From NCBI RefSeq assembly GCF_037969725.1, contig NZ_CP150203.1, positions 1,566,001-1,630,000 of the forward strand: a stretch of DNA of 64,000 nt. The letters run 5' to 3'. Both the position numbers and the translations under genes were made by a program. Positions 34,878 to 54,415 of this stretch are shown here, one piece after another (position 1 is the stretch's first letter; every line of letters begins with the position of its first letter). Source of the DNA: Paenibacillus sp. FSL W8-0426 (GTDB taxonomy: Bacteria; Bacillota; Bacilli; Paenibacillales; Paenibacillaceae). The notes below the pieces were generated by a model, which was not told where the DNA came from, ran no database searches, and saw nothing but the letters and a program-made list of their open reading frames with translations.

Positions 34878-34907
34878 GTCGTGTATACTGAGACGTTATG
34901 TGACATA
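34878..34907 (+). other. attC-like right-arm remnant
   Basis: GTCGTGTATACTGAGACGTT followed by ATGTGACAT matches the right arm and core of the complete sites (CGTGAATACAGGAACGTTAT). It marks the left edge of the large cassette region. Confidence 0.5.
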
Positions 34908-34938
34908 CTGGAAACCAATTATTTAAGCGGGTGAAACC

Positions 34939-35295
34939 ATGCAGCAAGTGGATTTAACCAAAACTCTTGAAGAGTTAGAAGGTGAAAAGTGGAACGAACC
35001 GAATTTTGCTTCTCGGTTGGTTCTCCAAGGATATGAATTAAGAAAGAAACCTCTCTGTGAATGGAATAATGAAGATTTAAGGCTTTCGATCGGGCAACAA
35101 ATGAGTCTGGATTTTCTTTTACCTTTAGCCTTAGAGAAATTAATGGAGAACCCATTGAGTTCAGGGGATCTGTATATGGGAGATTTATTTTGTTCGGTAC
35201 TTAAGGTAGGACAAAGATATTGGGAAGAACATAGAGAACTGAAGAACGAATTAGATGAAGTGATCCGAACATATGAAGAGGCGAGAAAGACATGA
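34939..35295 (+). CDS. CdiI-type contact-dependent inhibition immunity protein (cassette gene)
   Basis: A 118-residue protein. The pattern DLTKTLEELEGEKWNEPNF, LRKKPLCEWNNEDLRLSIGQ, LDFLLPLALEKLMENPLSSG and DLYMGDLFCSVLKV is that of CdiI immunity proteins that neutralise contact-dependent toxins. No toxin gene is adjacent, so it would be an orphan protecting against toxins of neighbours. It sits 32 bases after an attC-like core, as expected of a cassette. The ribosome site GCGGGTGAAACC is moderate. Confidence 0.72.
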   Translation: MQQVDLTKTLEELEGEKWNEPNFASRLVLQGYELRKKPLCEWNNEDLRLSIGQQMSLDFLLPLALEKLMENPLSSGDLYMGDLFCSVLKVGQRYWEEHRELKNELDEVIRTYEEARKT

Positions 35296-35312
35296 GTGAG
35301 AAAAATTTATAT

Positions 35313-35455
35313 TATATAAAAACATCTACACGTTAACGGAGAGGCAGAGCCAATCTGAAGAAGCGAAGCGGTTCGCCAAAAAGCTTTCTGAAAGAAAGCT
35401 GCATCGGAAGCATAGGTTTATCACCGGATTTTCCGCTTAGAAGAGGGGATACCCT
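35313..35455 (+). repeat. Structured repeat, copy 2 (3' truncated)
   Basis: It begins TATATAAAAACATCTACACG and continues through GTTAACGGAGAGGCAG and the AGCTTTCTGAAAGAAAGCT hairpin to GAGGGGATACCC. The last third and the right inverted repeat are missing. Confidence 0.65.
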
Positions 35456-35589
35456 AAATGCGAAAAACACAGTATCTATTTAAATTGCCATGGATGTATA
35501 CTTTGCAATAATGGAAGCTGAATTAAGGCTGCGGCTCCTGCAGACATTATTGACATTTTTATAAAGAACCCAAGTAGGTGGAATCAAAG

Positions 35590-36189
35590 ATGCCTTATAT
35601 GAAACCTGTAATTCGAGAACCTTATTATGATAAACCTGTATGGATTGAGAATGAAGTGGCTCGGAAGGAGTTTGCTTTCTTATCCTCGAATAGCAGTGAA
35701 AGTGAAGTTGAATTGTTTTTATTGCATTTATTTGGATACAACAGTATAGATGCATCGATGTCTTTTGAAGAATCTTTCAAAGAGCTTTTGGAGAAAGATG
35801 AAGTTGCTATTTTAGGCGGGGTTACATTTATACAGGATGAAGAAACGTTTATTATGCCTAGCTGTTGTTGCGGACTTGAAGAACTACAACCAATAATTAA
35901 TTCAATTCAAGCAAAACAAAGTCCATGGTTAGGGCATGATCCGTCACCTGGAATTATATATTATGAAGATTATGTCTTAGTGTGGTCAGATGATCCAGCA
36001 ACACAGAAGGAAGAATTATTTTGTATCAGGTTTACCTATAAAGAGCTGTTAGATGGTCTTGAGAAATGCAAAAATGACTTGCTGGAATTTATAAACGAAC
36101 CTTTATATCAATGGATCATGGCAAGAGATGAAGAAATAGCGGATCGAATGAAGCAAAAAATGCTTCAATGGTTTTTGAAAGACGAATAG
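35590..36189 (+). CDS. Hypothetical protein (cassette gene)
   Basis: A 199-residue acidic, soluble protein that I do not recognise. A PSCCCGLEEL motif with three adjacent Cys lies near residue 90, followed by SPWLGHDPSPGIIYYEDYVLVWSD. The tone (GxxPSPxIxY, then acidic loops and a Lys-rich tail) is reminiscent of polymorphic-toxin immunity proteins. The ATG at 35590 is chosen over 35578 because GGTGG lies just upstream. An attC-like site follows, so it is probably the gene of one cassette. Confidence 0.55.
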   Translation: MPYMKPVIREPYYDKPVWIENEVARKEFAFLSSNSSESEVELFLLHLFGYNSIDASMSFEESFKELLEKDEVAILGGVTFIQDEETFIMPSCCCGLEELQPIINSIQAKQSPWLGHDPSPGIIYYEDYVLVWSDDPATQKEELFCIRFTYKELLDGLEKCKNDLLEFINEPLYQWIMARDEEIADRMKQKMLQWFLKDE

Positions 36190-36194
36190 TAATG

Positions 36195-36297
36195 AACGGA
36201 CTCAGGCAACCACCTCTGCAAGGCTGTTTAGTCTCTGACCCAGTCACTGCACTCCTTAAGGCTTTCGGGTTCGTGAATACGGGGAACGTTATAGATA
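36195..36297 (+). other. attC-like site
   Basis: The right arm CGTGAATACGGGGAACGTTA is clear at 36272. The middle (CAAGGCTG, GACCCAGTCACTG, TTAAGGCTTTCGGG) matches the long site at 40533. The left arm is diverged. Confidence 0.6.
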
Positions 36298-36319
36298 AAT
36301 CGAAAAGTGAGGTACAAGG

Positions 36320-36793
36320 ATGAGTTATAAATCTATTCTTATAGACCAATTAAACGCCTGTTATAACGATAAAAGTTGGTTCATCCCGCTCCATGACATT
36401 TTAAAAGATTTAAATGCTGCACAAGCTGCATGGGAAAATGAAAGTAAACAATCCATTTGGTCGATCGTAAATCATCTTATTTTTTGGAATGAGAAGTGGC
36501 TTGAGAGGTATAACGTCGGACAATTTGAATTAGATAGTTCAATAAACAATGATGATACTTTTTACGTGAATCCACATACGATAAATGATTTTGAGTGGAA
36601 AAAGACCTTAGAGCGACTTGAAACAGTCTTTAATGGTTGGAATAAAGCCCTTGAGGAAAGTGATGATCTCAAACTTATCAAAGAGATTCCTTCCTATTTC
36701 AATGCTCCTTGGTGGGGCGTGGTATCCAATTTAAGTATTCATAATGCGTATCACATTGGTCAGATCATGATGCTCAAGAAACAGATGCATTGA
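36320..36793 (+). CDS. DinB-superfamily protein (cassette gene)
   Basis: A 157-residue four-helix protein. The DinB metal ligands are visible as a His in WSIVNHLIFWNEKWLERY near residue 52 and the final SIHNAYHIGQIMMLKK, where two His residues close the site. Such proteins are metal-dependent enzymes or thiol transferases of mostly unknown substrate. The start is 22 bases after an attC core, with GAGG as ribosome site. Confidence 0.8.
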   Translation: MSYKSILIDQLNACYNDKSWFIPLHDILKDLNAAQAAWENESKQSIWSIVNHLIFWNEKWLERYNVGQFELDSSINNDDTFYVNPHTINDFEWKKTLERLETVFNGWNKALEESDDLKLIKEIPSYFNAPWWGVVSNLSIHNAYHIGQIMMLKKQMH

Positions 36794-38549: not shown

Positions 38550-38625
38550 CACTTCCGATAACTTTATATCCATGCATCAACCCAAAATCGGTGAACGTCG
38601 TGAATACAGGAATGTTAAGCGAAAT
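38550..38625 (+). other. attC-like site, short form
   Basis: Left arm CCGATAACTTTATATCCATG; right arm CGTGAATACAGGAATGTTAA followed by GCG. The central hairpins seen in other copies are reduced, giving a site of about 75 bases. Confidence 0.6.
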
Positions 38626-38680: not shown

Positions 38681-39313
38681 ATGGCTAAATTGATTTTGTT
38701 AAGTGACCTGAAAGAAAATGATAGATTGTTGAATAAATTAGAAGACATCTTTGGAGGGATAAAACCTTCTATTGCTTATATACCTTCGTGTTCTGATCCG
38801 GACAGAACATATTTCAAAGCGACAACGGAGTTTTATAACAAGATTGGAATTGAAGATATCGAATATAAGGATCTCGATGAAGAGTATGACGAGATAGTTA
38901 TTTCCACTATTTTTGAGCACAATGCGATTCATTTATCTGGAGGGAATACATTTTATTTTTTGCACTTGTTACGTAAACGGGGCTTTATAGATTCGTTGCG
39001 CACATATGTCAGCAATGGTGGAATTTTAATTGGGGTTAGTGCCGGAAGTTTATTAATGACGAAAACAATCGAATTAGCCGGCTATGGCGAAGATGGAGAC
39101 TTAAATGGAGTTGGGTTAAAAGATATGAAAGCATTAGGTTTAGTAGAATTTGAATTTTTACCTCACTGGGATGGCTCAGAAAAAACAGAACAATCAATAA
39201 GTCGTTATGCAAAGGCAAAAGATATAACAGTTTATTTATGTAGGGATGGAGATGCAGTAGTAGTAAATAACACAAAAATTGAATTCATTGGGGATATAAG
39301 AGTAATTAACTAG
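38681..39313 (+). CDS. Peptidase E-like protein (family S51, cassette gene)
   Basis: A 210-residue protein with the class-I glutamine-amidotransferase-like fold of alpha-aspartyl dipeptidases. The nucleophile elbow is GVSAGSLLM with Ser120; the oxyanion/His region FLPHWDGSEKT follows. Also AIHLSGGNTFYFLHLL, typical of S51. It would cleave Asp-X dipeptides in the cytoplasm. The ribosome site GAAGGGGAAG is good. It sits between two attC-like sites and so is a clean single-gene cassette. Confidence 0.85.
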   Translation: MAKLILLSDLKENDRLLNKLEDIFGGIKPSIAYIPSCSDPDRTYFKATTEFYNKIGIEDIEYKDLDEEYDEIVISTIFEHNAIHLSGGNTFYFLHLLRKRGFIDSLRTYVSNGGILIGVSAGSLLMTKTIELAGYGEDGDLNGVGLKDMKALGLVEFEFLPHWDGSEKTEQSISRYAKAKDITVYLCRDGDAVVVNNTKIEFIGDIRVIN

Positions 39314-39353: not shown

Positions 39354-39452
39354 CTTAACCTAATATTCACGCTGCGGCCATACGCCCTGGGTCGGGCATT
39401 CGCCGGACACTCCGCATACGCTGAGTCGTGAATACAGGAACGTTAGCCGAAA
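39354..39452 (+). other. attC-like site
   Basis: Left arm CTTAACCTAATATTCACGCT; hairpins GGGTCGGGCATTCGCC and GCATACGC; right arm CGTGAATACAGGAACGTTAG. All parts of the common site are present. Confidence 0.75.
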
Positions 39453-39479: not shown

Positions 39480-40246
39480 ATGATATTAGAAAAAGTTATA
39501 AATAGAATTGTAATACAAAGTGAATATAAGGATTTGGTTGATAAGTATATAGATCAGATCCTTACCGAATTTAAAGGTAAGATTCATAGCATATATATGT
39601 GTGGCTCGATTCCAAAAGGAACTGCTAAACCTTTTAAGTCAGATGCAGACTTTACTATTGTCTGTGTAATCCCAAAGATATTGATTACGAAAGATTGACA
39701 AATATTAAAGACAGGCTTTTGAAAGAATATCCAATAGTCACTAAGATTGATACGATCATTTGCTCGATTGACGATGTATTAAGTAAACCGAATGAGTGGG
39801 GTTTTTGGGTTAAGATTATTTGTGTTTGCATGTATGGTGATGACATTGGTGAAAAAGTACCACCGATCATTATTTCTCCAGAGTTCATTCTAGACTTAAA
39901 TACAGAGACCACGGAAGAAGTAGGTCGTGTACGTCGTTCACTTTCTACTGCTAGTGATCACACGATGAAAACTAGATATATTAAAGGGTATTCGAAAAGA
40001 TTAATTCGTGCATTATACTCTTTGGTTTTAGTAGATACAGGTGTATGGCAAGATGACATTATTGAGATGAAGAATGCCATATTAAACTATTGTGAGATTG
40101 ACTCCGCTTTAGTTGATTATTTGTATGCTTGTTACTTGGATAGTAATGTACTTGTTGAAGAGTTTCTGGGAATTGCAGATGAAATATATAGCTATTTTGA
40201 GAACGCGTTAAATGCCATGGCTGCTTCCGGAACTTCCCTCGACTAA
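39480..40246 (+). pseudogene. Nucleotidyltransferase cassette gene, copy 1, frameshifted
   Basis: Nearly identical to the intact gene at 52331. One A is missing at about 39669 (GTGTAATCCC here, GTGCAAATCCC there), so the first frame ends 72 codons in, shortly after the catalytic CGSIPKGTAK and SDADF motif. The remaining sequence is open in another frame from 39695. The product would have no complete transferase fold. The C-terminal codons and stop lie inside the following attC-like site, exactly as in the intact copy. Confidence 0.85.
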
Positions 40247-40340
40247 CACCATATTGACGCTCCGGGTCACTCTGAGAAGCGAGTGACCACATCCAGCCCC
40301 CTAAGCCCGTCGGGACGTCACTGCATAGGTGTTCGGCAAG
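40242..40340 (+). other. attC-like site, variant arms (copy 1)
   Basis: Left arm CTAACACCATATTGACG pairs imperfectly with CGTCACTGCATAGGTGTTCG. Between them GTCACTC and GAGTGAC form a hairpin. The arms differ in sequence from the common type but keep the AAC/GTT ends. It overlaps the stop codon of the nucleotidyltransferase gene. Confidence 0.6.
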
Positions 40341-40372
40341 CCTCACAACTATAAGTATGCCCATTAATTAGC

Positions 40373-40532: not shown

Positions 40533-40700
40533 TCATATAACAACATATTCACGCTGCGAGGCTGACTCCCCTTGGTCTGCCAAAGGTATTTCGAGGAAGT
40601 CGTAACAGGCAGACACTCCTACGAGGCTAAGTCTTCAACCCAGTTACTGATGGTCCTTTAAAGCCTCTCGGGTTCGTGAATACTACAACGTTATGCGCCA
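40533..40700 (+). other. attC-like site, long form (about 165 bp)
   Basis: Left arm ATAACAACATATTCACGCTG; right arm CGTGAATACTACAACGTTAT. Between them TTGGTCTGCC pairs with GGCAGACAC. The long insert GAGGCTAAGTC...TAAAGCCTC gives an extra stem. Confidence 0.75.
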
Positions 40701-40741: not shown

Positions 40742-41395
40742 ATGAAAGGAAAGATACTCTTATTATTTTTTATGACGATCGTGTTTTCATCTTGTCAAAA
40801 TAGTAGTCAATCGACTACCTTAAACAGCGAAACTAAATCAATAATGAATTCTAAACTGCCTCCTGATGCAGTGAGTACAGGTAATGGAACAGAATCGAAA
40901 GAAATAACTGAAGGTCAATCGGATCCTTCTAATAATGAAGTGTTATCCATGAGCATTGGGACCTACGATTTGAGTGGGGAATTTTATGATGAAATGCTTC
41001 GAAATCCTATAGATCATGATTATGAAGTGGAATTAAATGAATTTCAAAATTCCAAAGAGATTATTACAACATTGGAATGGGGGGCGTTGGAAAGCAAATA
41101 TACAGAGATCTGGGATAAAGAGTTGAATCAAATATATAAAAAGCTTCTTTCTAAGTTGGATAGAGAACCAAGAGAAGCATTAATTGAATCGCAGAAAGAA
41201 TGGTTAAAGTATCACTTAAGGGAAACAAAATTTGTAGAGAAGACATTTATTGATAATGGTTACCTTGGATCACAAGGATCAGTAAGCTTAGGCACGGTTA
41301 TACGGGAGAGAATTAGGGAAAGAACAATGCAATTATTTGAATATCGATATTTGCTAGATGGTGAAGTTGAGTTTGTATACCGAAGTAAAAAATAG
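40742..41395 (+). CDS. Lipoprotein with LprI/DUF1311-like domain (cassette gene)
   Basis: A 217-residue protein. The signal peptide ends FSSC with Cys18, followed by a Ser/Asn/Thr-rich spacer, so it is a membrane-anchored lipoprotein. Residues ~105-205 (ALESKYTEIWDKELNQIYKK; REALIESQKEWLKYHLRETK) match the LprI (DUF1311) domain, members of which are lysozyme-inhibitor-related. A protective surface role is possible but inferred. Its start lies 50 bases after an attC core, with AAGGGG. Confidence 0.72.
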   Translation: MKGKILLLFFMTIVFSSCQNSSQSTTLNSETKSIMNSKLPPDAVSTGNGTESKEITEGQSDPSNNEVLSMSIGTYDLSGEFYDEMLRNPIDHDYEVELNEFQNSKEIITTLEWGALESKYTEIWDKELNQIYKKLLSKLDREPREALIESQKEWLKYHLRETKFVEKTFIDNGYLGSQGSVSLGTVIRERIRERTMQLFEYRYLLDGEVEFVYRSKK

Positions 41396-41444: not shown

Positions 41445-41525
41445 GCGCATGACACCATATTCACGCTTCGGGCCATTCGGCCCTCGGTCCGGCCGATGAA
41501 TTTCGGGGAAGTAGAGGTAGCCAAA
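41445..41525 (+). other. attC-like site, left half
   Basis: GACACCATATTCACGCTTCG, then GGGCCATTCGGCCC hairpin and TCCGGCCGATGAATTTCGGG. The right arm with GTGAATAC and GTTAT is missing before the next gene. Confidence 0.5.
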
Positions 41526-41575
41526 TACATTAGATTTCGTATGGCTTGGATGAGTTCATATAATTTAATTAGAGC

Positions 41576-42667: not shown

Positions 42668-42859
42668 TATATAAACCGCAAAAAACAAACAAACGTTAAC
42701 GGAGAGGCAGAACCAATCTGGAGAAGCAAAGCGTTCGCATTTATCACCGGATTTTCCCCTTAGAAAAGGGGAATCCCAAAAATCTGGGGATAACAGCGAT
42801 CGGAAGATGGTACTGCACTCGCAGTGCCCTAGTGAAAATGATTAGTGCGGTTTATATAA
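42668..42859 (+). repeat. Structured repeat, copy 3 (about 190 bp, internal deletion)
   Basis: Both ends are intact: TATATAAACCGCA on the left and TGCGGTTTATATA on the right form a perfect 13-base inverted repeat. Compared with copy 1 it lacks the AGCTTTCTGAAAGAAAGCT hairpin segment. CCCCTTAGAAAAGGGG and ACTGCACTCGCAGT are kept. Confidence 0.75.
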
Positions 42860-44871: not shown

Positions 44872-44889
44872 AAAAGTAGGAATTGATAA

Positions 44890-44991: not shown

Positions 44992-45003
44992 GGTGGTCAA
45001 AGA

Positions 45004-45330
45004 ATGGAAGCTAAAATGTTGTTTGACGTTGGTTTAGTCTTTGAAACACCTGAATTCGGAACCGTCGTTATGGGTGCCAATGCAGAGTTAGATGGACTAC
45101 TTCCTTCAACAATCAAAGAGATAATTGGTGCACAGATAATCATTAAAAAAACGGATGGGGAAGAACAAATATTTGAAGTTGATTCTACTCAAATTAATCA
45201 TTCTATAGCCGACAAGAAGAATATCGGTATATGTTTGGGGAAAGAGATATCCCCTGACGAAATATCTGCTGGTTTAATCGTCTACTGTTATTCATCAGGA
45301 CAAATTGATCAGTGGTGCAGGCTTGAGTAG
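45004..45330 (+). CDS. Hypothetical small protein
   Basis: A 108-residue soluble, acidic protein (FDVGLVFETPEFGTVVMGAN; GAQIIIKKTDGEEQIFEVDS; IGICLGKEISPDEISAG). It looks like a compact beta-rich fold; no family recognised. Ribosome site AAGGTGG. It ends just before integrase module B. Confidence 0.5.
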   Translation: MEAKMLFDVGLVFETPEFGTVVMGANAELDGLLPSTIKEIIGAQIIIKKTDGEEQIFEVDSTQINHSIADKKNIGICLGKEISPDEISAGLIVYCYSSGQIDQWCRLE

Positions 45331-45410
45331 ATGCTATGGAGTAGAGGTTTGTCATTGAACTTGCTATGCTTATCCTCTACTTTTACAACATCATAAATGT
45401 TCCGAAAGCA

Positions 45411-45461
45411 TCGGAAGGTTATCTGATTCCCTATTTGGGATGAAGAGAGCCTTCCTTTTTT
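45411..45461 (+). terminator. Conserved terminator-like hairpin heading integrase module B
   Basis: GGAAGG pairs with CCTTCC over an inner ATTCCCTATTTGGGAT stem and is followed by six Ts. The same fold opens module A, and a reduced form opens module D. It lies ~30 bases before the integrase reading frame. Confidence 0.65.
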
Positions 45462-45491
45462 ATTTTTCAGAATTTCGGAGAAAACATAGCT

Positions 45492-45933
45492 ATGCAAATA
45501 AGGTTGCGTCTGCGTTGCAGTGATCTGGATATTGAAAGGAAAACAATCATCGTGAGACAGGGGAAGGGGCACAAGGATCAGAGGACGCTTCTTTCAAATC
45601 TTGCCTGGGATATCGTGCAGAAATACATAGCTGAATATAGACCTAATCGTTGGCTGTTTCCGGGGCAATCTTCTGATCGACATCTTACCGAGCGGAGCGT
45701 GCAGAAGGTTTTTGAAGAAGCAAGACGACGTGCAGGTATTGAGAAAAAGGAAGTATTCATGCACTGAGGCATTCCTTTGCCACTCATTTGTTGGAAAACG
45801 GGACAGACCTGCGCTACATTCAGGAGCTGCTTGGTCATACGAGCGCACGTACAACTCAGCGATATACGCATGTTAGTTCGAAGAATATCCAGCGTATTCA
45901 AAGCCCGCTGGATCGGATGGATTTTGGGGATTG
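45492..45933 (+). pseudogene. Tyrosine recombinase (integron-integrase-like), C-terminal half, frameshifted
   Basis: This is the fullest integrase copy in the window. It covers the catalytic domain from LRLRCSDLDIERKTIIVRQG through QSSDRHLTERSVQKVFEEAR. A one-base frameshift near 45750 then breaks the frame. In the other frame it continues [40 protein letters not shown] and ends QSPLDRM. HxLR, the LLGH block and the YTHV tyrosine are the patch II and active-site residues of the family; the SPLD tail is shared with integron integrases and related Bacillota recombinases. The N-terminal DNA-binding domain and the first catalytic Arg are missing, so it is inactive. Confidence 0.82.
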
Positions 45934-45972
45934 AGGGCTACTCGAAGTCTCCCTTATTCTCCAAACTTTTCT

Positions 45973-46066
45973 ACGCAAATGTAACATTTTGGGTTATCAT
46001 ATACGTAGTTCGGATAACGTACAGGATGTGTGGTATTTACGAAGTACATAAATTAGATGTTATCTG
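45973..46066 (+). other. attI-like recombination site B
   Basis: It runs AAATGTAACATTTTGGGTTA, CATATACGTAGTTCGGATAA, then TTTACGAAGTACATAAATTA and GATGTTAT. It is almost identical to site C at 53453. Similarity ends at GTTAT, after which the HEPN-type gene begins. Confidence 0.65.
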
Positions 46067-46142
46067 AAAGATGGACACCAACAAAATACAATTATTAGAA
46101 TTTAATAATTTAATAAAAATCAAAACAATAGGAGTGAGTAAA

Positions 46143-47186
46143 ATGAATGACGATTTTTTGAAATTATTAAAAGAATCAATGGTGTTAATTGAAAATTATT
46201 GTGAAGGTCAAGAAAATCAAAAATTATTTCAACTTAGATTCTTTGATTGTATTCATTCAAAAATAATACCAAAGTATTTTAAACCTGAAGAAAACAATCA
46301 CCTAACTATTTTGTTCTATAAACAATTACTAAATGAGATCAAGAAATACGATAATAATTTCTATAACGAAATTCACAAGGGTGTCCCGTATTTTTTCATT
46401 GGATGGTATTCATTTCTATTGAAACAATACGATCAATCAATTTTTTATTTAGATGCATCGTTGGCAGAAGATAAAAAAACACACAAAAAAAACGATGTTT
46501 GGTTACATTCAGGGGCAGCCAATTTTTTTAAACTAAAAGCTAACTATAGTGGGGCATATAATATATTTAACGATCGAAAGTTGCCTGATTTAATTTTTAA
46601 TCTAATAAATAAATATAATGAACTTTGTGAGGAGATAGATACGAAAATTACTATACAAGAATTTACTAATAAATTCGTTGAAAAATTAATAATTGAAGAT
46701 AATACAGCAATTATCACTACTTTGTATTCTTTTATATTGGAGTTCGAAGATATTCAAGAAATGATTAAACTGCGTAGTATCAACGGTGGAACAATTGAAC
46801 CAATGATAATTCATTTATTCAAAGGAGCTGTAATATTTGAAACTCTTATTAAAAGAACAAATAAAAGGCCAGATGGAAAAGATTTCATGGTGTTGAATGG
46901 TCTCTTTACACATGAAACCAGTCCGTTTGTAAGTAAATACCCTGAGTTTACTATCAATGGAGGACACATTGAACAACTTAATGAAATTTTAATTCCCCTC
47001 ATAAATGATGAATATAGTAACTTTGTTTCTGCAGCATTTAATACAGTCTACAAAATTAGAAACTCAACTGCTCATAATCTATCATGGGATGATGTTTTTA
47101 TTGATGATAACTATGAAAAAATGTTTCTTCAAATAATAAATTCTATATTTATAGTGATACAGAGAGAATACATAAAGACACCATAA
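46143..47186 (+). CDS. HEPN-like, possible abortive-infection protein (first cassette after attI-like site B)
   Basis: A protein of about 347 residues, very AT-rich. The N-terminal ~240 residues are helical and unrecognised. The C-terminal part has TRKRP-like charged segments and then YKIRNSTAHNLSWDD, an RNxxxH motif of HEPN ribonuclease-type domains, preceded by helices and followed by a final hydrophobic helix. HEPN proteins often act as RNA-cutting toxins in phage defence; that role is inferred from the motif only. The ATG at 46143 follows AGGAG; an upstream in-frame ATG at 46071 lies right at the attI core. Confidence 0.6.
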   Translation: MNDDFLKLLKESMVLIENYCEGQENQKLFQLRFFDCIHSKIIPKYFKPEENNHLTILFYKQLLNEIKKYDNNFYNEIHKGVPYFFIGWYSFLLKQYDQSIFYLDASLAEDKKTHKKNDVWLHSGAANFFKLKANYSGAYNIFNDRKLPDLIFNLINKYNELCEEIDTKITIQEFTNKFVEKLIIEDNTAIITTLYSFILEFEDIQEMIKLRSINGGTIEPMIIHLFKGAVIFETLIKRTNKRPDGKDFMVLNGLFTHETSPFVSKYPEFTINGGHIEQLNEILIPLINDEYSNFVSAAFNTVYKIRNSTAHNLSWDDVFIDDNYEKMFLQIINSIFIVIQREYIKTP

Positions 47187-47290
47187 TTACAGCATTCATG
47201 GGTTATTACACAGAAGATAGAGAGATTTCGGGAGGCAGCCGGACACACCTGGCATTCGCCAGGCGTTCGTGAATACGGGAACGTTATGAG
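47178..47290 (+). other. attC-like site
   Basis: Left arm ACACCATAATTACAGCATTC; hairpins CTGGCATTCGCCAG and GGCAGCC; right arm CGTGAATACGGGAACGTTAT. The left arm is diverged, the right arm is exact. Confidence 0.7.
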
Positions 47291-47345
47291 ACATCATTGT
47301 GATATAAATAGAGTAAAACGGATCAAGGAGGGAGAGACAGAAACC

Positions 47346-47675
47346 ATGGATGACTTTACGAAGAAGCGGATTATGAAGATCATGGACAAATACACTAAAA
47401 ATGCAGTACCAGAACATATGAAAAGCCAAATAAGAATCAGTTATAAGATCAGAGGAAATCATGTAACATTGATTGAAGAAAGACAAGGATTCAAAAGTGA
47501 TCAATGGGTGCAGATGCCAGTAGCTCAGTTTAGATTAGGTGAGAATGAATGGAAAATATATTGGCAAGACAGTAAAGGGAAATGGCATTTCATAGATGAT
47601 ATCGAACCGAATGAAGATTTTGAAACACAGTTAAAGATAGTGGATGAAGGACACAACGGAATGTTTTGGGGATAG
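47346..47675 (+). CDS. DUF3024 protein (cassette gene)
   Basis: A 109-residue protein starting MDDFTKKRIMKIMDKYTK with VPEHMKSQIRISYKIRGNHV and TLIEERQGF, then a short C-terminal repeat-like segment with WKIYWQDSKGKWHFIDD. This is the DUF3024 family of unknown function, common as small orphan genes. The ATG at 47346 is chosen because the family begins there; the ATG at 47286 lies inside the attC core. Ribosome site AAGGAGGGAG. Confidence 0.75.
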   Translation: MDDFTKKRIMKIMDKYTKNAVPEHMKSQIRISYKIRGNHVTLIEERQGFKSDQWVQMPVAQFRLGENEWKIYWQDSKGKWHFIDDIEPNEDFETQLKIVDEGHNGMFWG

Positions 47676-47690: not shown

Positions 47691-47815
47691 GACATCTCAT
47701 AACATAATATTCAAGCAGCGGCTCCTATGGAGCCTTGGTCTGCGGATGGATTTCGAGGAAGCAGTTCGGCAGACAACCCCTTTGGGATTCGTGAATACAG
47801 GAACGTTATCGGAAA
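47691..47815 (+). other. attC-like site
   Basis: Left arm CATAACATAATATTCAAGCA; hairpin GGCTCCTATGGAGCC; TTGGTCTGC pairs with GCAGACAAC; right arm CGTGAATACAGGAACGTTAT. Complete. Confidence 0.8.
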
Positions 47816-47955: not shown

Positions 47956-48708
47956 TTGAAGAAAATACTAAGTAAAACAGGCACATTAACAGTATGTGTC
48001 ATCCTACTTATCGCAATCATTACCACTATAGCGTGTTGGGATGAACTTGGGAGTTTGGTAAGGACAGGGAATTATGATAGTACGGATAATATGGTAGAAA
48101 CCATAATGGCCAAATCAGCGACTCCAGGGGTGGCTATGGTAGTATCAGAGCGGGGCAAGACAGAATATAAGAATTACGGATATGCAGATGTTAATAATCA
48201 AAAGAGGGTAACTGAAGAGTCATTATTTGAGTTGGGATCGACTACAAAGGCATTTACGGCTTTGGCCGTTATTTTATTAGAAAATGAGGGCTACTTATCT
48301 CTTTCAGATTCTATTACAGATTATATTCCATCGTTTGAGCCAACCATTATGGGTGAGAAAGTTAATATTACGATTCATCAGTTGTTAGCTCATACAAGTG
48401 GAATTCCACCGTGGAGTATTCGGTTAATTCCTGAAGGTACCACGGAGGATATGCTTGAAAAAACGATACATAATGTGTCAGACATTGCATTAGATACGTA
48501 TCCTGGGACAGCTTGTAATTATGCTACAGTTAATTATGATATTTTAGCGATGATTATTGAAAAAGTTACAGGCAAACGTTATCAGGATTACATGACTGAA
48601 AACATACTGGTTCCTTTAGGAATGACTGATAGTTATTTTTCAACAGGTCAGGAAAAGGAAACTGATAAACTTACCAAAGGATATCGTGTTTTTTTGGAAA
48701 AAGCTTAG
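47956..48708 (+). CDS. Beta-lactamase-fold serine hydrolase, C-terminally truncated (cassette gene)
   Basis: A 250-residue protein starting with TTG after AGGGAGAA. It has an N-terminal membrane helix, then SxxK as STTK (Ser95-Lys98) in LGSTTKAFTAL. The second motif reads NYATVNYDIL, so the usual YSN is YAT. The protein ends at residue 250, while relatives extend past 330 residues and carry a third motif (HxG/KTG). The truncation removes that motif, so activity is doubtful. It is followed by ~200 bases of unassigned sequence and then an attC-like site; the lost 3' end fits erosion within the cassette. Confidence 0.7.
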   Translation: MKKILSKTGTLTVCVILLIAIITTIACWDELGSLVRTGNYDSTDNMVETIMAKSATPGVAMVVSERGKTEYKNYGYADVNNQKRVTEESLFELGSTTKAFTALAVILLENEGYLSLSDSITDYIPSFEPTIMGEKVNITIHQLLAHTSGIPPWSIRLIPEGTTEDMLEKTIHNVSDIALDTYPGTACNYATVNYDILAMIIEKVTGKRYQDYMTENILVPLGMTDSYFSTGQEKETDKLTKGYRVFLEKA

Positions 48709-48910: not shown

Positions 48911-49075
48911 ACATCCGATAACACAGCATTCCTACTGCGGGCATTCGCCCTTGATCGCTAAGAAGGATTTCTAAGGAGTTTATCCAAGCGATACATTCAA
49001 CCAGCTAAGTCTGACGACACATTTCCTACGGTCACTTAAGCTGTTTGAACGTCAGGAATGCCAAACGTTATGAGA
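48911..49075 (+). other. attC-like site, long form
   Basis: Left arm CCGATAACACAGCATTCCTA pairs with GTCAGGAATGCCAAACGTTA. Inside, GCGGGCATTCGCCC, TCGCTAAG with TTTCTAAGGAG, and CAAGCGATA with TTAAGCTG-type segments give an elaborate fold of about 165 bases. The arm sequences differ from the common type, yet the AAC/GTT ends and arm pairing are kept. Confidence 0.65.
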
Positions 49076-49099
49076 AATCATCAAGAAAGGGGGATAAAG

Positions 49100-49788
49100 A
49101 TGAAGTACGTTAGATATCCGACTGAAGAAGAATGGCATGAAATTTTGAATCAAAGTCCATTTATAGGATTCCAATTTTCATCTACTGATTTTGTTGATAA
49201 CGCTTCAGATGCAACGGTCTTTTTTGATGGACCAATAATCAATTCATATGGATCATTGCTAGTGCATAGATTTAAGGCACTGCTTGAAAGCTATATCATG
49301 TTAAGTTTCTATTATCAATTAGGAATACCGGATAACGTAGAAGATAAAAATAATAGTGAAATATTTGAAAAGTTTGAACCCCATCATTTTGGAAATAAAG
49401 AAAAGTTCGATTACTACTCAGATGTTTTTTATCTTAAAGCATTTTCATGTTTAGAAGCTATAGGACACATACTTAAGGAACGATACAACCTAAAAGTAAA
49501 AAAAGTAGAGTTCAAAAATATAGTTAGAAAGATGAAAAATGAAAATCCTGATTTATTTAAAAATTTAGCGAAATAACAGAGAATGATGAGTTTATTAAAG
49601 CGAATACTTATAGAAATCAGATAACCCATAATCATTCTCCTAATTTACCTGGCATACATCGACTTAAAGATATTAACGGAGCAGTAATAGAGGTAGAGAC
49701 AGAATACTACAATTCGAAGAAGGTACACCACAACATCTTATCAATGTCAGAACTTCTTAAGAAGACAATAGAAGTGATTTGTGAGTAA
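49100..49788 (+). pseudogene. Cthe_2314-like HEPN-domain protein, frameshifted (cassette gene)
   Basis: The first frame (158 codons, MKYVRYPTEEEWHEILNQ onward) ends FKNLAK at 49576. Sequence then continues in the next frame as ITENDEFIKANTYRNQITHN and on to LKKTIEVICE, stop at 49788. The second part holds RNQITHNH, an RxxxxH HEPN motif, so both parts together make one protein of about 230 residues. The frames change near TTTAGCGAAATAACAG. It could be a simple mutation or sequence error. Cthe_2314 HEPN proteins are defence/toxin candidates. The ATG at 49100 has a GGGGGA site. Confidence 0.65.
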
Positions 49789-49803: not shown

Positions 49804-49911
49804 GACATCTCATAACATAATATTCACGCTGCGGACATTCGTCCTTGGTCCGGCATTCGCCGGACACTCAACATGCGTCGAGTCGTGAATACAGGAACGT
49901 TATAGTAAATC
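49804..49911 (+). other. attC-like site, canonical form
   Basis: Left arm CATAACATAATATTCACGCT; hairpins GGACATTCGTCC, CCGGCATTCGCCGG and ACTCAACATGCGTCGAGT; right arm CGTGAATACAGGAACGTTAT. This is a reference copy of the common type. Confidence 0.85.
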
Positions 49912-49967: not shown

Positions 49968-50702
49968 ATGACTAATAAACAGTATCCTAATTTTATTGAT
50001 CGTGAAAATATTTTTTCAGATAAAGAAAAGATAGCAAAGGTAGAAACTTTTCTATCTTTTGAAAAAAATAAAAGTGAAAAAATAGCTGAAAATGAACTCT
50101 TTATAAGAAAGGTTTTAAAACTTCCCCTAAAGAAAGCTACTGGCTCAAAAAAAATTTGTTTTTGTTTAATGAATCCCAGCAAGGCTGATAAGCAGAACTC
50201 AGACGATACCGTAAATATTGTGCTAAAGTTCGTTGAAAAATTAATGAATGAAGTAAATAGCCAATTTAAAAATATTGGAGAAGTTGTTGTTGTGAATCTC
50301 TTCCCAACTTACGAGACGAGATCAACTTTTTTAGGAACAGTTATAGAGGGATTACAAAAAACAAATAAGCTTGATCACTTACTTTGTAGTAACCAAACAG
50401 AAATTATGAAGGAGGCCAAAAATAGTGAATGGATTATCTTAGGCTGGGGGAACTGTCCTGAAAACTTATGTGTTAATCTTCATAAATGTGAAACTAACAA
50501 AATATTAGCTACCTTATACAAGGTGCAAAAAGGATCAAGCATTTATGTTTTTGAGGATAAGAAAAACGAGGGATTGACCAGAAAGAAACAGCCAAGACAC
50601 CCAAGACGTTTACATACGGACACTTCAATAATATCAGAGATCAAAATCAAAAAAAATAAACAAGGTAATGATAAAATTGCTACATACGAAATTGAATTTT
50701 AA
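49968..50702 (+). CDS. DUF1643-like protein (cassette gene)
   Basis: A 244-residue protein. KKICFCLMNPSKADKQNSDD and IGEVVVVNLFPTYETRST, then SEWIILGWGNCPEN and KKQPRHPRRLHTDTS are the DUF1643 blocks (LNPSxAD, NLF, GWG, and the final P-x-H-P). Function unknown; the family is common on mobile elements. The start is 60 bases after an attC core, with GAGG. It lies between two near-identical attC-like sites, a textbook cassette layout. Confidence 0.75.
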   Translation: MTNKQYPNFIDRENIFSDKEKIAKVETFLSFEKNKSEKIAENELFIRKVLKLPLKKATGSKKICFCLMNPSKADKQNSDDTVNIVLKFVEKLMNEVNSQFKNIGEVVVVNLFPTYETRSTFLGTVIEGLQKTNKLDHLLCSNQTEIMKEAKNSEWIILGWGNCPENLCVNLHKCETNKILATLYKVQKGSSIYVFEDKKNEGLTRKKQPRHPRRLHTDTSIISEIKIKKNKQGNDKIATYEIEF

Positions 50703-50709: not shown

Positions 50710-50816
50710 GACATCCTATAACATAATATTCACGCTGCGAGCATTCGCTCTTGGTCCGGCATTCGCCAGACACCCAGCATATGCTGGGTCGTGAATACAG
50801 AAACGTTATGCGAAAT
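50710..50816 (+). other. attC-like site, canonical form
   Basis: Left arm TATAACATAATATTCACGCT; hairpins GAGCATTCGCTC, CCGGCATTCGCCAG and ACCCAGCATATGCTGGGT; right arm CGTGAATACAGAAACGTTAT. The third hairpin is perfect and differs in sequence from those at 49.9 and 54.4 kb, i.e. paired bases vary together. Confidence 0.85.
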
Positions 50817-50848: not shown

Positions 50849-51508
50849 ATGAGAAATCTAGAGACAGAATTGATTCAAAGCCACCAAGCATTATTCGGTG
50901 ATTATTTTATGGAAGAAGAAGAGGCAAACAATTTTATATTAGAGAAGCTTAATTACTCCCAAAGTTTAGTGCCGCGCAGAATGTTAAATACTGCTCAGAG
51001 ATTGATAACTTTATCTGACGAGATAGATATAATTCGACCTGGAAGAAGAGACTTAAGTATCTTCTTTTTGATTACCTGTATCGAGTCACTATATGGTTTC
51101 ATTCCAGCAGTAAAACTGAAAAAACAAGAAATAGCAATTCACTTTTTTGAGAACTATTTTAATCAAGATGATAAGAAAATTATTCAAGAAAGTATAACTA
51201 TTTCTGGTATTAACGATGAAGTTTATTATAAAGAAGAAATAAGTATGTCAGAGTTCGCTTTACTTATGACATCTATTAGAAATAATGTTGCACATGAAGG
51301 AGTTTACTGGACATTTCATTTTAATGAAGAAGATTATGATGGAAGAACTTTAAATATAGTCAAAGCTAAGTTGAAAAAGGATGAGGGATATAATCAAATT
51401 ACATATGAAGTTGGGTTAACATATCGACAATTTAGGAACGCATGTATAAGAGCTTGTATTTCTTTGATAAATGATCAATTCCAAAAAGCTAAAGATTCTT
51501 CACTGTAG
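50849..51508 (+). CDS. HEPN-motif hypothetical protein (cassette gene)
   Basis: A 219-residue helical protein. DLSIFFLITCIESLYGFIPA near residue 70 and SIRNNVAHEGVYWTFHF near residue 145 give the HEPN pattern: an RNxxxH motif (RNNVAH) after a helix that begins the family's second half. It resembles small apea/MAE-type HEPN proteins found in defence islands. No partner gene is present. Strong AAGGAG ribosome site 33 bases after an attC core. Function is inferred from the motif only. Confidence 0.6.
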   Translation: MRNLETELIQSHQALFGDYFMEEEEANNFILEKLNYSQSLVPRRMLNTAQRLITLSDEIDIIRPGRRDLSIFFLITCIESLYGFIPAVKLKKQEIAIHFFENYFNQDDKKIIQESITISGINDEVYYKEEISMSEFALLMTSIRNNVAHEGVYWTFHFNEEDYDGRTLNIVKAKLKKDEGYNQITYEVGLTYRQFRNACIRACISLINDQFQKAKDSSL

Positions 51509-51515
51509 CTAATCT

Positions 51516-51645
51516 ACTTCGCATAACATAATATTCAAGCTTCGGCTCCTTACGGAGCCTTGGTCTGCTTGTAGAAAATCAATGAGGTATCTCAGCAGAC
51601 ACATCCGGCTACGCCGGACATTGTGAATACAACAACGTTAACTGA
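51516..51645 (+). other. attC-like site
   Basis: Left arm GCATAACATAATATTCAAGC; hairpin GGCTCCTTACGGAGCC; TTGGTCTGCT pairs with AGCAGACAC; TCCGGCTACGCCGGA; right arm TGTGAATACAACAACGTTAA. Complete. Confidence 0.8.
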
Positions 51646-51693: not shown

Positions 51694-52158
51694 ATGATTA
51701 TCCAAGATGATATGATAGTACATTTTAATGAGAATGTGGAGCTGGAAGCCGAAGTTCTATATTCATTTTTATCGGACGAGGATGATTTACTGTTTGGAGA
51801 ATGGATTAGTGGCCTTCCCTTGGAGTTTATAGAAGAAAGAACAGTATTATTAAGTACACAGTGGATATTTGACTGGTTACCTGAACAACAAACTAAGATT
51901 TATTGGTATAAACCTAGATCTAAGGAAGAACTTAAACAGTATTTTTTAAAGAATTTATATCCCCCATATTATTGTGTTGTTCTTCCTCGCGGAAAGGAAA
52001 TTACAGAATATAAATATATCTTGTATGCTTATGAACATGCTGAATTTAATAATGAAGAATGTACGGCTTTATTTGTTATGAAGGAGAGTATCCTAGGGAG
52101 CTTTAAAAGAGATGTAAAACCTATTCTAGAAAAATTGATAAAGAAACAGTCAAATTGA
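51694..52158 (+). CDS. Hypothetical protein (cassette gene)
   Basis: A 154-residue acidic protein (EAEVLYSFLSDEDDLLFGEW; LLSTQWIFDWLPEQQTKIYW; YYCVVLPRGKEITEYKYILY). I do not recognise the family. It has no signal or membrane segment. It is flanked by attC-like sites on both sides. Ribosome site GATGAGGAA. Confidence 0.55.
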   Translation: MIIQDDMIVHFNENVELEAEVLYSFLSDEDDLLFGEWISGLPLEFIEERTVLLSTQWIFDWLPEQQTKIYWYKPRSKEELKQYFLKNLYPPYYCVVLPRGKEITEYKYILYAYEHAEFNNEECTALFVMKESILGSFKRDVKPILEKLIKKQSN

Positions 52159-52191: not shown

Positions 52192-52302
52192 TGAGCTAAC
52201 ACCGTATTCACGCTGCTGAACTTACGCTCCTTGGTCTGCCCGAGGCAATTCGGGGGAATAGAATCGGGCAGAACGTCATGATTACAACAACGTTAGCCCG
52301 AA
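52192..52302 (+). other. attC-like site
   Basis: Left arm GAGCTAACACCGTATTCACG; TTGGTCTGCCCGA pairs with TCGGGCAGAAC; right arm CATGATTACAACAACGTTAG. To its right, from the ACGTTAG core onward, the sequence matches that following the site at 39354; to the left of the core the two differ. Confidence 0.75.
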
Positions 52303-52330: not shown

Positions 52331-53101
52331 ATGATATTAGAAAAAGTTATAAATAGAATTGAAATACAAAGTGAATATAAGGATTTGGTTGATAAGTATA
52401 TAGAAAATATACTTACCGAATTTAAAGGTAAGATTCATAGCATTTATATGTGTGGCTCGATTCCCAAAGGAACGGCTAAACCTTATAAGTCAGATGCGGA
52501 CTTTACTATTGTCTGTGCAAATCCCAAAGATATTGATTACGAAAGATTGTCAAATATTAAAGACAGGCTTTTGAAAGAATATCCAATAGTCACTAAGATT
52601 GATACGATCATTTGCTCAATTGACGATGTATTAAGTAAACCGAATGAGTGGGGTTTTTGGGTTAAGATCATTTGTGTTTGCCTATATGGTGATGACATTG
52701 GTGAAAAAGTACCACCGATCATTATTTCTCCAGCGTTCATTCTAGACTTAAATACAGAGACCAAGGAAGAAGTAGATCGTGTACGTCGTTCACTTTCTAC
52801 TGCTAGTGATCACACGCTGAAAACTAGATATATTAAAGGGTATTCGAAGAGATTAATTCGTGCATTATACTCTTTGGTTATAGTAGATACAGGTGTATGG
52901 CAAGATGACATTATTGAGATGAAGAATGCCATAATAAAGTATTGCGAGATTGACTCCGGTTTAGTTGATTATCTGTATGCTTGTTACTTGGATAGTAATA
53001 ATGTACTTGTTGAAGAGTTTCTGGGAATTGCAGATGAAGTATATAGCTATTTTGAGAACGCGTTAAATGCCATGGCTGCTTCCAGAACTTCCCTTGACTA
53101 A
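52331..53101 (+). CDS. Nucleotidyltransferase, intact copy 2 (cassette gene)
   Basis: A 256-residue protein. The polymerase-beta-type motif is CGSIPKGTAKPYKSDADF, with Gly-Ser at 42-43 and metal-binding Asp55 and Asp57, as in antibiotic adenylyltransferases and minimal nucleotidyltransferases. The C-terminal half is helical (KGYSKRLIRALYSLVIVDTG). It could modify an antibiotic, a tRNA or a protein; nothing here decides which. The last codons and stop lie within the left arm of the following attC-like site. A frameshifted twin is at 39480. Ribosome site TAGGAG. Confidence 0.8.
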   Translation: MILEKVINRIEIQSEYKDLVDKYIENILTEFKGKIHSIYMCGSIPKGTAKPYKSDADFTIVCANPKDIDYERLSNIKDRLLKEYPIVTKIDTIICSIDDVLSKPNEWGFWVKIICVCLYGDDIGEKVPPIIISPAFILDLNTETKEEVDRVRRSLSTASDHTLKTRYIKGYSKRLIRALYSLVIVDTGVWQDDIIEMKNAIIKYCEIDSGLVDYLYACYLDSNNVLVEEFLGIADEVYSYFENALNAMAASRTSLD

Positions 53102-53195
53102 CACCATATTGACGCTCCGGGTCACTCTGAGAAGCGAGTGACCACATCCAGCCCCCTAAGCCCGTCGGGACGTCACTGCATAGGTGGTTCGGCAA
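53098..53195 (+). other. attC-like site, variant arms (copy 2)
   Basis: Nearly identical to 40242-40340: left arm CTAACACCATATTGACG, inner GTCACTC/GAGTGAC hairpin, right arm CGTCACTGCATAGGTGGTTC. One extra G lies before the GTT core. Confidence 0.6.
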
Positions 53196-53220
53196 GCCTC
53201 ACTTATAAGTAGCGATTCTT

Positions 53221-53312
53221 AGGGACCAGGACATCGTCTGTTTTCTGATCTGAAATCCATCATAGAACATAGACTCGGGGATCTAGTACTTAGAATTGAG
53301 CACGTTGGTCCT
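53221..53312 (+). pseudogene. GrpB-family protein, N-terminal fragment
   Basis: GGACCAGGAC is followed, after small frame errors, by DLKSIIEHRLGDLVLRIEHV and G, a conserved N-terminal GrpB segment. It is cut off at GTTGGTCC and joined directly to integrase remnant C. The complementary C-terminal fragment is at 40373. Confidence 0.55.
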
Positions 53313-53414
53313 TGGTTATACGAGCGCACGTACAACTCACGATATACGCATGTTAGTTTGAAGAATATCCAGCGTGTTCAAAGCCCGCTGGATCGGATGG
53401 ATTTGGGGGATTGA
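53313..53414 (+). pseudogene. Tyrosine recombinase remnant C
   Basis: It starts in the block equivalent to [15 protein letters not shown] (one base lost in the middle) and runs through [16 protein letters not shown] to a stop. Only the last ~35 codons of the integrase remain. Confidence 0.75.
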
Positions 53415-53452
53415 GGGCTACTCGAAGTCTCCCTTATTCTTCAAACTTTTCT

Positions 53453-53546
53453 ACGCAAATGTAACATTTTGGGTTATCATATACGTAGTTCGGATAACGT
53501 ACAGGATGTGTAGTATTTACGAAGTACATAAATTAGATGTTATGTG
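53453..53546 (+). other. attI-like recombination site C
   Basis: It has the same sequence as site B with very few changes, again ending AAATTAGATGTTAT, followed here by GTGAAATCAATT and the membrane-protein gene. Confidence 0.65.
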
Positions 53547-53578
53547 AAATCAATTAAAAGATTAAGAAGGGACATATA

Positions 53579-54310
53579 ATGATCGAATTACTTCTGAAAT
53601 TTTATAAAAAGAAAGTTATTTCATATCATTTAGTATTTCGATTTATGAAAGTGAAATATCGGCTAATGAGATACTCTTTTTTAATTTTTGTAATATCCAT
53701 ATTGCCGATGATTTACGGATTAACTTTAGGTCTAGCATGGGAAGAATCTCGTACATTGTCAATTGGATTTATATTTTTCTTTATTTTTATGCTGATTGTA
53801 ATGAAAACTATGGACGTACTAGTGAACAATCAAGCTAAAACAATTTTAAAACAGAAATATAATATTGAGCCAAATGGTTTATCTTGGCGAAATGAAAAAT
53901 TTGAAGAGATGCAATTGAACCTTATAAAAGAATATTTAATCAGCGGCTCATTATATAAAGAGGACAAAATTAAACTGTTGATAGAAATGATTGAGAAAGA
54001 TATCGATGCAAGAAAACTTTCACCACTTATCAACCCCGGAATTTTCATTTCTTTGTTTGTACCAATTTGGATACAATACTTAGTCTTTAAATACAGACCA
54101 ATAGAGACTGAAGTGGAAGCTACCGTAATGCTATTAAGTGGCACTTTTTTAATGCTAACAATAATTATTTTAATGAATGTTATTAAGAGATTTTCTAATG
54201 AAATAAAAGAGATAATTTTGACTGATGATAACGTATATAAAAAAACGTTGTTGGAAAAACTTAAAGATATATTGATAGTTTATAAAGAAGATGAAACCAA
54301 CAAACATTGA
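53579..54310 (+). CDS. Hypothetical membrane protein (first cassette after attI-like site C)
   Basis: A 243-residue protein. Two helices lie near 30-55 and 60-80 (FLIFVISILPMIYGLTLGLA; GFIFFFIFMLIVMKTMDVLV), then a soluble charged segment, then two more near 150-170 and 180-200. No family recognised. The start is 33 bases after GTTAT with a GAAGGGA site. A canonical attC-like site begins right after the stop, so the unit attI-gene-attC is intact. Confidence 0.6.
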   Translation: MIELLLKFYKKKVISYHLVFRFMKVKYRLMRYSFLIFVISILPMIYGLTLGLAWEESRTLSIGFIFFFIFMLIVMKTMDVLVNNQAKTILKQKYNIEPNGLSWRNEKFEEMQLNLIKEYLISGSLYKEDKIKLLIEMIEKDIDARKLSPLINPGIFISLFVPIWIQYLVFKYRPIETEVEATVMLLSGTFLMLTIIILMNVIKRFSNEIKEIILTDDNVYKKTLLEKLKDILIVYKEDETNKH

Positions 54311-54311
54311 C

Positions 54312-54415
54312 TTCACATAACATAATATTCACGCTGCGGACATTCGTCCTTGGCCCGGCATTCGCCGGACACCCGACATACGTCGGGTCGTGAATACAGG
54401 AACGTTATAGGAAAT
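54312..54415 (+). other. attC-like site, canonical form
   Basis: Left arm CATAACATAATATTCACGCT; hairpins GGACATTCGTCC, CCGGCATTCGCCGG and ACCCGACATACGTCGGGT; right arm CGTGAATACAGGAACGTTAT. The third hairpin is perfect and differs from the others by compensating changes. Confidence 0.85.

Follow-up and report, generated by a model that had tools for sequence, protein, structure and literature searches.

A chromosomal integron-type cassette array in Paenibacillus, likely built by a tyrosine recombinase without the IntI-specific insert

How did a run of short, AT-rich genes, nearly all on one strand and many of them separated by imperfect palindromes, come to lie in the chromosome of Paenibacillus sp. 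FSL W8-0426, a member of the Bacillota? The window analysed here is a stretch of 64,000 nucleotides (bases 1,566,001-1,630,000 of a 6.9-Mb chromosome assembled as one contig), and a preliminary description had read its positions 34878-54415 as integron gene cassettes with attC recombination sites, collected by a site-specific tyrosine recombinase. Our own answer, to which we would assign a probability of about 0.86 from sequence comparisons, is that the genes form an integron-type cassette array of the chromosome, which was likely assembled by a tyrosine recombinase that resembles both XerA and the integron integrase IntI and lacks the insert specific to IntI. The array in this strain is probably frozen, since only C-terminal remnants of the recombinase were found. 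The system is integron-like in anatomy and genome dynamics, but its enzyme falls outside the IntI family, since a search for the insert that defines that family showed it to be missing.

The guanine plus cytosine (GC) content falls from about 0.50 at 28-34 kb to 0.32-0.41 at 34-56 kb of the window, and the genes between 34.9 and 54.4 kb are short, low in GC, nearly all on the plus strand and mostly single, as had been described. The proposed limits need revision in two places: the array extends beyond the window to chromosome position 1,640,542, and the segment at 42.3-46.06 kb is not cassette sequence and instead forms the 5' flank of a former integron platform, comprising a serine hydrolase gene, a 108-amino-acid gene, an integrase remnant (45492-45936) and an attI site. 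Palindromes do stand between many of the genes, with 12 plus-strand matches to the covariance model introduced below, alongside junctions that keep one arm or a degenerate site (34881-34898, 36273-36293, 40245-40350, 41450-41563 and 53099-53200) and some gene pairs at 35-38 kb that have no recognisable intervening site.

The palindromes share the layout TAAC-4 nt-L''...L'-7 nt-GTTA, which is the R''-spacer-L''..L'-spacer-R' architecture of attC with a GTT core. We assembled 167 distinct sites of 59-188 nt from the window and 20 stretches of relatives, and reduced these to 158 by requiring AAC and GTT or ATT; in the window, a pattern scan finds 10 two-armed sites, 9 under the same requirement. 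The commonest length is exactly 90 nt, and the 48 sites of this class (mean column identity 91%) conserve the outer TAAC/GTTA pair, spacers of 4 nt on the left and 7 nt on the right, an L stem of 8 bp and, further in, three hairpins. Across the 158 sites the spacer on the right typically exceeds the one on the left by 3 nt, and the L box varies, as in GCATTCCT/AGGAATGC at 48919-49070, yet remains complementary. For the outer 8 pairs of the L stem, ungapped pairing is best in 145 of the 158 sites, a left bulge in 3, a right bulge in 8 and either in 2, and these pairs do not display the extrahelical bases on the R''-L'' arm that are expected of IntI sites. When genes are called as longest open reading frames (ORFs) in the window and the 20 stretches, 13 of the 158 sites fall mostly within a called gene, compared with 74% of random placements, and between sites 208 called genes lie on the site strand and 43 on the opposite one.

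Changes on both sides occur in 14 of the 30 drawn base pairs among the 48 aligned 90-nt sites, and the observed covariation score is reached by none of 500 shuffles. In the drawn structure 96.1% of cells are paired, against 92.0% in shuffled alignments and 28-37% when the partner is slid by 1-3 columns; the structure was drawn from the same sequences, which favours the percentage paired and, to a lesser degree, the count of compensatory changes. The three inner hairpins contain almost all of these changes, and the R and L boxes hardly vary. Single-strand DNA folds of four window sites give z values of -1.5 to -4.6; the bottom strand of two 90-nt sites folds as drawn save for the 4-bp R box, and in two longer sites the predicted minimum includes the L stem on no more than one strand.

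A covariance model of the kind that the preliminary description had proposed as a check, built from the 48 sites (4 of them from the window) and here called R1, returns 14 matches in the window at E<=1. Twelve lie on the plus strand at 38.6-54.4 kb, two of these with E of about 0.02, and the remaining two, at 50735 and 54334 on the minus strand, are weaker echoes of the sort that R1 gives on the strand opposite its own palindromes. The right-arm motif occurs 10 times forward and never reversed in the host genome, always within 1.605-1.632 Mb. The same arms were also sought in other genomes, as had been suggested, and the motif GTGAATACNNNAACGTTA is present in 71 of 75 from the genus, with two hits to the reversed pattern across all 75. 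Viral contigs contain no instance of the exact 19-base right-arm pattern, and one 90-nt site searched against plasmids and phages gave no match.

A linked recombinase is visible in the relatives of this strain. The class members found in its own genome are two remnants, at 45492-45936 and 53311-53417, each followed after about 120 bp by the same attI; the first scores 77 bits to the last 59 positions of the IntI model TIGR02249 and shares about 80-96% DNA identity with the integrase ends of relatives in the longest matches. The host also encodes separate tyrosine recombinases of Xer length (L001, L003). An IntI-like match at E<=1e-25 exists in 50 of the 75 genus genomes, many of them open frames of about 370-440 residues, and the TIGR02249 cut-off is reached in none of the 75. 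In relatives, an open frame for a tyrosine recombinase is followed by a conserved attI and this in turn by same-strand cassettes. In the fetched flanks of the 30 best integrase loci, an attC right arm stands downstream of the gene and on its strand in 22 cases, upstream in one (L028) and nowhere in seven. Two-armed sites in the 20 larger stretches share the strand of the integrase in 157 of 159 cases, with one of four sites in L171 and one of eight in L174 as the exceptions. The idea that a site-specific tyrosine recombinase built the array is thus sustained by the linkage in relatives and requires amendment, in that the enzyme is not IntI and only remnants of it were found in this strain.

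Of 53 stretches collected behind integrase C-termini, 44 were kept by an anchor pattern, and all 44 place attI next to the integrase gene, as in IntI integrons. Type 1 (30 sequences) is conserved up to ..ATAAATTAGAT|GTTA and divergent straight after, with 93% identity at -30..-1, 100% in GTTA and 42% at +5..+34; the 14 sequences of type 2, mostly ..AAATAAGAC|GTTA, give 69%, 96% and 40% over those three intervals. Type 2 reads CGTAAATA-AGAC-GTTA and shares its L-spacer-R pattern with the attC arms (CGTGAATA-CAGGAAC-GTTA). Upstream of 27 integrases, three of them truncated, no LexA-type box was found with up to 2 mismatches to the consensus. One relative (L163, G020:C1:1873501-1893500) has two integron platforms in tandem, both of them complete with integrase and attI, and the genes that precede these two integrases have matches in the window at 33.2-34.5 kb and 43.0-45.5 kb.

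What kind of enzyme is this? The spacing between box I and box II measures 59 residues for 103 of 108 relatives (range 58-62) and 100 residues for 116 of 116 IntI homologues, after 12 of 120 relatives and 4 of 120 homologues without the spacing motif were dropped; the IntI-specific insert, in which the I2 helix should lie, is missing. Among solved structures, the closest in sequence are those of IntI4 (2a3v, 141 bits) and of archaeal XerA (137), and residues 173-239 of 2a3v have no counterpart in the Paenibacillus integrase. In IntI, this helix docks extrahelical attC bases and prevents second-strand exchange, according to the part of PMC7790495 that treats it. An AlphaFold model (mean predicted local distance difference test 82, predicted template modelling score 0.52) comprises an Xer-like core and an N-terminal domain of about 90 residues that is weakly HARP-like in Pfam (E 0.02); the top structural matches are 5hxy and 4a8e, then 2a3v, and Foldseek puts 2a3v first. 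R224, K249, H314, R317, H340 and Y349 are invariant in 48 sequences, and we take this R, K, H, R, H, Y set to be the catalytic residues. Against the XerA model NF040815 (cut-off 220 bits), P0002 scores 223, P0101 238 and P0063 210; the TIGR02249 scores of these proteins lie below its cut-off. The NCBI name of many such proteins, 'site-specific tyrosine recombinase/integron integrase', is the name of NF040815, a XerA model. Residues 1-90 of P0002 contain a GRxWxPxxKVWxIPY motif, and the N-terminal domain is common to class members in other Bacillota.

If the GTT core is where cassettes come and go, then strains should differ exactly there, and this comparison had been named in advance as one that could instead point to dispersed repeats. 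Four genomes (L161, L171, L174, L176) were picked for alike integrases and one alike cassette; the integrase frame is open and full-length in the first three and truncated in L176. In the 300 nt that lead up to the attI GTT they are 97-99% identical, and past +20 identity is down to 26-46%. The last attC core reads GATA in L161; downstream of this core the four agree at 92-99%, and in the preceding 60 nt five of six pairs agree at 28-42%, the sixth (L161/L174) having its last cassettes in common. The interval from the attI GTT to the last attC core measures 4.8-9.0 kb across the four genomes, and apart from the L161/L174 end the compared pairs have no common stretch of at least 180 bases at E<=1e-30 between those points. 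Another pair, L160/L172, shows collinearity as far as attI and afterwards shares one 0.7-kb piece alone. Cassette gain and loss thus occur at the GTT core, as in IntI systems, and with the sites and the linked recombinase and attI of relatives this upholds the cassette-plus-attC layout originally proposed. The same-species genome G010 is collinear with the window over 43,476-46,069 and again from 54,383, and the interval between these two points is 8.3 kb in the window and 1.9 kb in G010, with one cassette in common.

The enzyme class and its sites are not confined to one genus. Of 148 Paenibacillaceae genomes, 82, which belong to 15 of 19 genera, have R1 matches, with at most 29 candidates scored per genome; as weak single matches are perhaps due to chance, we also give the count with at least two matches, which is 64 of 148. 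In G591 there are at least 29 scored R1 matches, and 30 plus-strand matches lie within 23.5 kb; a motif search of 40 kb of this genome (L199 and L200, G591:C1:3470001-3510000) did not find an integrase. In a phylum sample of 249 genomes R1 matches six, two of them Paenibacillus and the other four with one weak match each, perhaps by chance, and it matches none of three family members in that sample (G096, G178, G292). The integrase class itself, at E<=1e-70, occurs in 25 of 398 genomes from the phylum; 23 of these do not belong to the genus and include Selenihalanaerobacter shriftii and Sporohalobacter salinus. We examined 16 of these 23; six others have a minus-strand integrase less than 3 kb from the contig start, and G434 was left out. 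A strict scan for TAAC..[AG]ACGTTA sites with complementary L boxes gave 35 sites in the 16 loci, 34 of them in 8 loci and all on the integrase strand. Shuffles gave 0.25 sites, and control sequence (324 kb in 18 regions from 11 of these genomes) gave none; in L205, three more sites missed by the scan were seen by eye. The L boxes are genome-specific (AGGTTTACG, TTGTTTGCG, GCGGATATG, TGGGATTGG and others), and here too the right spacer exceeds the left, by 2-4 nt. According to a survey of complete RefSeq genomes, integrons in Bacillota are extremely rare, with one complete integron and a few clusters of attC sites lacking integron-integrases (CALINs) (PMC9024848). That the arrays reported here escaped notice is presumably due to the failure of IntI-specific profiles to match the enzyme.

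A tree with 56 rows places the integrases without I2 on one side of a branch (support 98/97), IntI is separated by another (100/98), and the two together split from five Xer rows (96/88). An earlier tree had IntI as one clade and placed row P0099, which had been labelled Paenibacillaceae, among other Bacillota; this row was excluded from the 56. The insert columns should be absent from the tree, because they are filled by 11 IntI rows alone (20%) and 30% was required. This thinly sampled tree agrees with two sister integron lineages, one of which would have gained I2, and convergence is also possible. The broader proposal, which we hold at even odds, is that of a second, Bacillota-wide integron lineage, sister to IntI, that never acquired I2 and whose recombinase would fold and cut branched hairpins without extrahelical bases, taking polarity from the asymmetric spacer.

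In the mechanism that we envisage, the recombinase would bind attI and attC at their L and R boxes and exchange strands adjacent to the GTT core, circular cassettes would be inserted at attI and excised between attC sites, and attC is predicted to react as a folded single strand. The L stem without an extrahelical base corresponds to the integrase without I2. With both halves of the canonical contact between extrahelical base and I2 thus absent, the spacer asymmetry would be the polarity signal if the reaction does proceed on a single strand.

Several observations weigh against this picture. No R1 match was found in 66 of 148 family genomes, the motif is lacking in 4 of 75 genus genomes, 25 of those 75 have no IntI-like match at E<=1e-25, and 8 of the 16 other-Bacillota loci, some of them on short stretches, hold fewer than two sites in the strict scan. 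On one covariation measure, further pair types are weakly above shuffles and are matched by 20 of 500. The Xer branches are long, and five Xer rows alone represent that family in the tree. Both G010 and the present strain have a truncated integrase, yet their cassettes differ, and their left arrays (28.2-43.5 kb) are fully collinear. With truncation common to both strains, the cassette change either predates it, occurred in trans or arose by homologous recombination; an array that is now mostly frozen fits the G010 comparison.

The last of these possibilities could be extended to all strain differences, which would then reflect homologous recombination between flanks and not the integrase. The flanks are indeed highly similar, and two strains without an intact integrase do differ in cassettes, but this account leaves the one-strand order and the position of attI beside the integrase unexplained, and single cassettes such as that of the nucleotidyltransferase recur in other loci without their window neighbours, so we find it improbable. 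A classical integron whose IntI lies elsewhere, with the XerA-like genes as mere bystanders, would suit the TAAC/GTTA core and R-spacer-L layout shared with canonical attC (as set out in the relevant part of PMC2727003) and the commonness of CALINs without a nearby IntI (as given in PMC9024848, in the part concerned). It is a little less probable still: an IntI above the NCBIfam cut-off is found in none of 75 genus genomes and 2 of 398 in the phylum sample, whereas the gene without I2 lies upstream of a same-strand site in 22 of 30 loci with attI behind it, and this class accompanies arrays in other Bacillota too.

Could the palindromes simply be dispersed repetitive extragenic palindromic (REP)-like or transposon-borne elements that happen to lie between the genes of a genomic island? 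The genome does contain a scattered repeat of 120 nt, with 40 scored copies on both strands across the chromosome at 85-100% identity, and copies stand in the array (35329-35450), beside it (55316-55430) and, more weakly, at 42698-42826. The attC-like motif is instead found 10 times forward and 0 reverse in one region, without the scattered both-strand distribution of REP elements, strain junctions fall at GTT, and 145 of 158 sites are outside called genes; the dispersed-repeat explanation has hardly any credibility left. The 120-nt repeat itself, which has no Rfam match at gathering scores in the window, was considered as a component of the cassette system and rejected, being unrelated to the attC sites. 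A rival that concerns the strand-transfer step only deserves more weight, although we think it unlikely: the linked integrase may act on double-stranded sites by two exchanges, like Xer or Cre, with the hairpins serving, for example, transcription termination. This would suit an integrase whose nearest NCBIfam model is XerA and which lacks the I2 helix, the element that IntI uses to dock extrahelical bases and to keep the second strand from being exchanged (PMC7790495). Against it, covariation preserves the inner hairpins, and sequence and pairing alike are preserved in the outer R and L boxes, beyond the needs of termination, and attC arms and one attI type follow the same L-spacer-R pattern. 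A cassette array handled by an integron-type recombinase without I2 remains our preferred reading.

In the window itself, all features of the array lie on the plus strand. The left end is the degenerate right arm of an attC-like site (34881-34898, GTTA 34895-34898; pattern scan), followed by a cassette gene for a CdiI_3-type immunity-like protein (34939-35295; Pfam PF18616, E 1.9e-23). A right arm with a degenerate left arm (36273-36293; pattern scan) precedes a DinB-superfamily cassette (36320-36793; PF12867), of which a 92% identical copy in another genome (L094) starts directly after GTT. A short attC-like site (38559-38617; R1 25.6 bits) and a peptidase S51 gene (38681-39313; PF03575) come next, then a site of the 90-nt class (39356-39445; 100 bits, in alignment A1), a 156-nt site (40538-40693; 39.1 bits), an LprI-like gene (40742-41395; PF07007) and a degenerate site (41450-41563; 16.9 bits, E 0.016). 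The nucleotidyltransferase cassette occurs twice, broken into two ORFs at 39480-40246 and open at 52331-53101 (PF01909), and behind both copies stands a left site arm alone (TAACACCATATTGACG..).

Beyond the integrase remnant at 45492-45936, whose 5' part is missing and which lies in two frames (partial TIGR02249 matches), attI occupies 45950-46062 (GTTA 46059-46062) and is conserved in 30 sequences up to GTTA. The first cassette gene behind it (46071-47186; ORF, Pfam) has no assigned function and is absent from the corresponding place in G010. A site with a degenerate left arm (47184-47286; 16.5 bits, E 0.022) leads to the DUF3024 gene (47286-47675; Pfam) that is common to G010 at 87.5% DNA identity, a 110-nt-class site (47700-47808; 51.6 bits) and a gene at 47956-48708 for one of the beta-lactamase-family serine hydrolases that Pfam names among cassette products (PF00144, profile positions 2-189 of 329). 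The site with the different L box (48919-49070; structure scan, R1 17.9 bits for its 5' part) overlaps the mechanically assigned ORF start of a HEPN gene (Cthe_2314-like, 49058-49576; PF18730). Two 90-nt sites, at 49813-49902 (113.4 bits; DNA fold z -3.0 top, -4.6 bottom) and 50719-50808 (110.1 bits), flank a DUF1643 gene (49968-50702; PF07799), after which come a HEPN-like gene below the Pfam cut-off (50849-51508), a 117-nt site (51524-51640; 41.5 bits), a gene without assigned function in a Pfam search (51694-52158) and a 99-nt site (52197-52295; 22 bits). The second integrase remnant (53311-53417), C-terminal like the first, is together with the attI behind it 95% identical in DNA to the corresponding part of G010; this second attI (53430-53542, GTTA 53539-53542), assigned by attI comparison, is followed by another gene without assigned function (53579-54310; ORF, Pfam) and by the last attC-like site of the block (54318-54407; 115.3 bits), within whose right arm collinearity with G010 resumes. 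Sequence comparison reveals a third attI-like copy at 63769-63882 (GTTA 63879-63882). Between two array blocks, a gene for 1211 amino acids (59888-63523) has internal repeats that align mutually and to several places in a G010 gene. Over the window, searches with Rfam at gathering scores and for tRNA and tmRNA returned no match, and PADLOC on nine cassette proteins gave weak matches only, every one to the nucleotidyltransferase.

If the proposed lineage is real, then hairpin cassette capture would predate I2, and these would be the natural intermediates whose absence is noted in models of integrase innovation. I2 has been presented as the basis of innovation toward attC processing, with intermediates lacking, in the part of an eLife 2020 paper that addresses this (PMC7790495). 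A natural integron without I2 would make the question of the origin of I2 testable at the bench, and the arrays open a pool of soil-bacterial cassettes, many without assigned function. Our search of the open-licence PMC literature found no description of such integrons, and earlier work elsewhere is possible.

How, finally, does the system compare with those already known? Like canonical integrons (class 1 and Vibrio chromosomal), it has single-gene cassettes, imperfect palindromic AAC..GTT sites with unpaired central spacers, attI beside the integrase and turnover at GTT. It differs from them in an integrase without the I2 insert and with an extra N-terminal domain of about 90 residues, in an outer L stem without an extrahelical base, and in having integrase and cassettes on one strand and no LexA-type box in 27 upstream regions. 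Limnochorda pilosa, whose integron is the only complete one reported for Firmicutes, beside a few CALINs, in the pertinent part of PMC9024848, is likewise a member of the Bacillota with a chromosomal integron. Its enzyme is a true IntI (477 bits to TIGR02249, cut-off 265, spacing 100), and its region has no R1 match at E<=0.001; a second IntI-type gene over the cut-off lies at 953,606-954,436 of this genome (L186/L203, G383). Archaeal integrons also have attI directly downstream of the integrase gene (PMC9668308), and the patch III motif region mentioned for their integrases in the part of that paper concerned corresponds to a stretch missing in the Paenibacillus enzyme. XerA (NF040815) is the best family model for the catalytic part of the Paenibacillus integrase, yet this enzyme is linked to cassette arrays and attI, carries the extra N-terminal domain and groups with IntI, apart from the Xer rows sampled (96/88).

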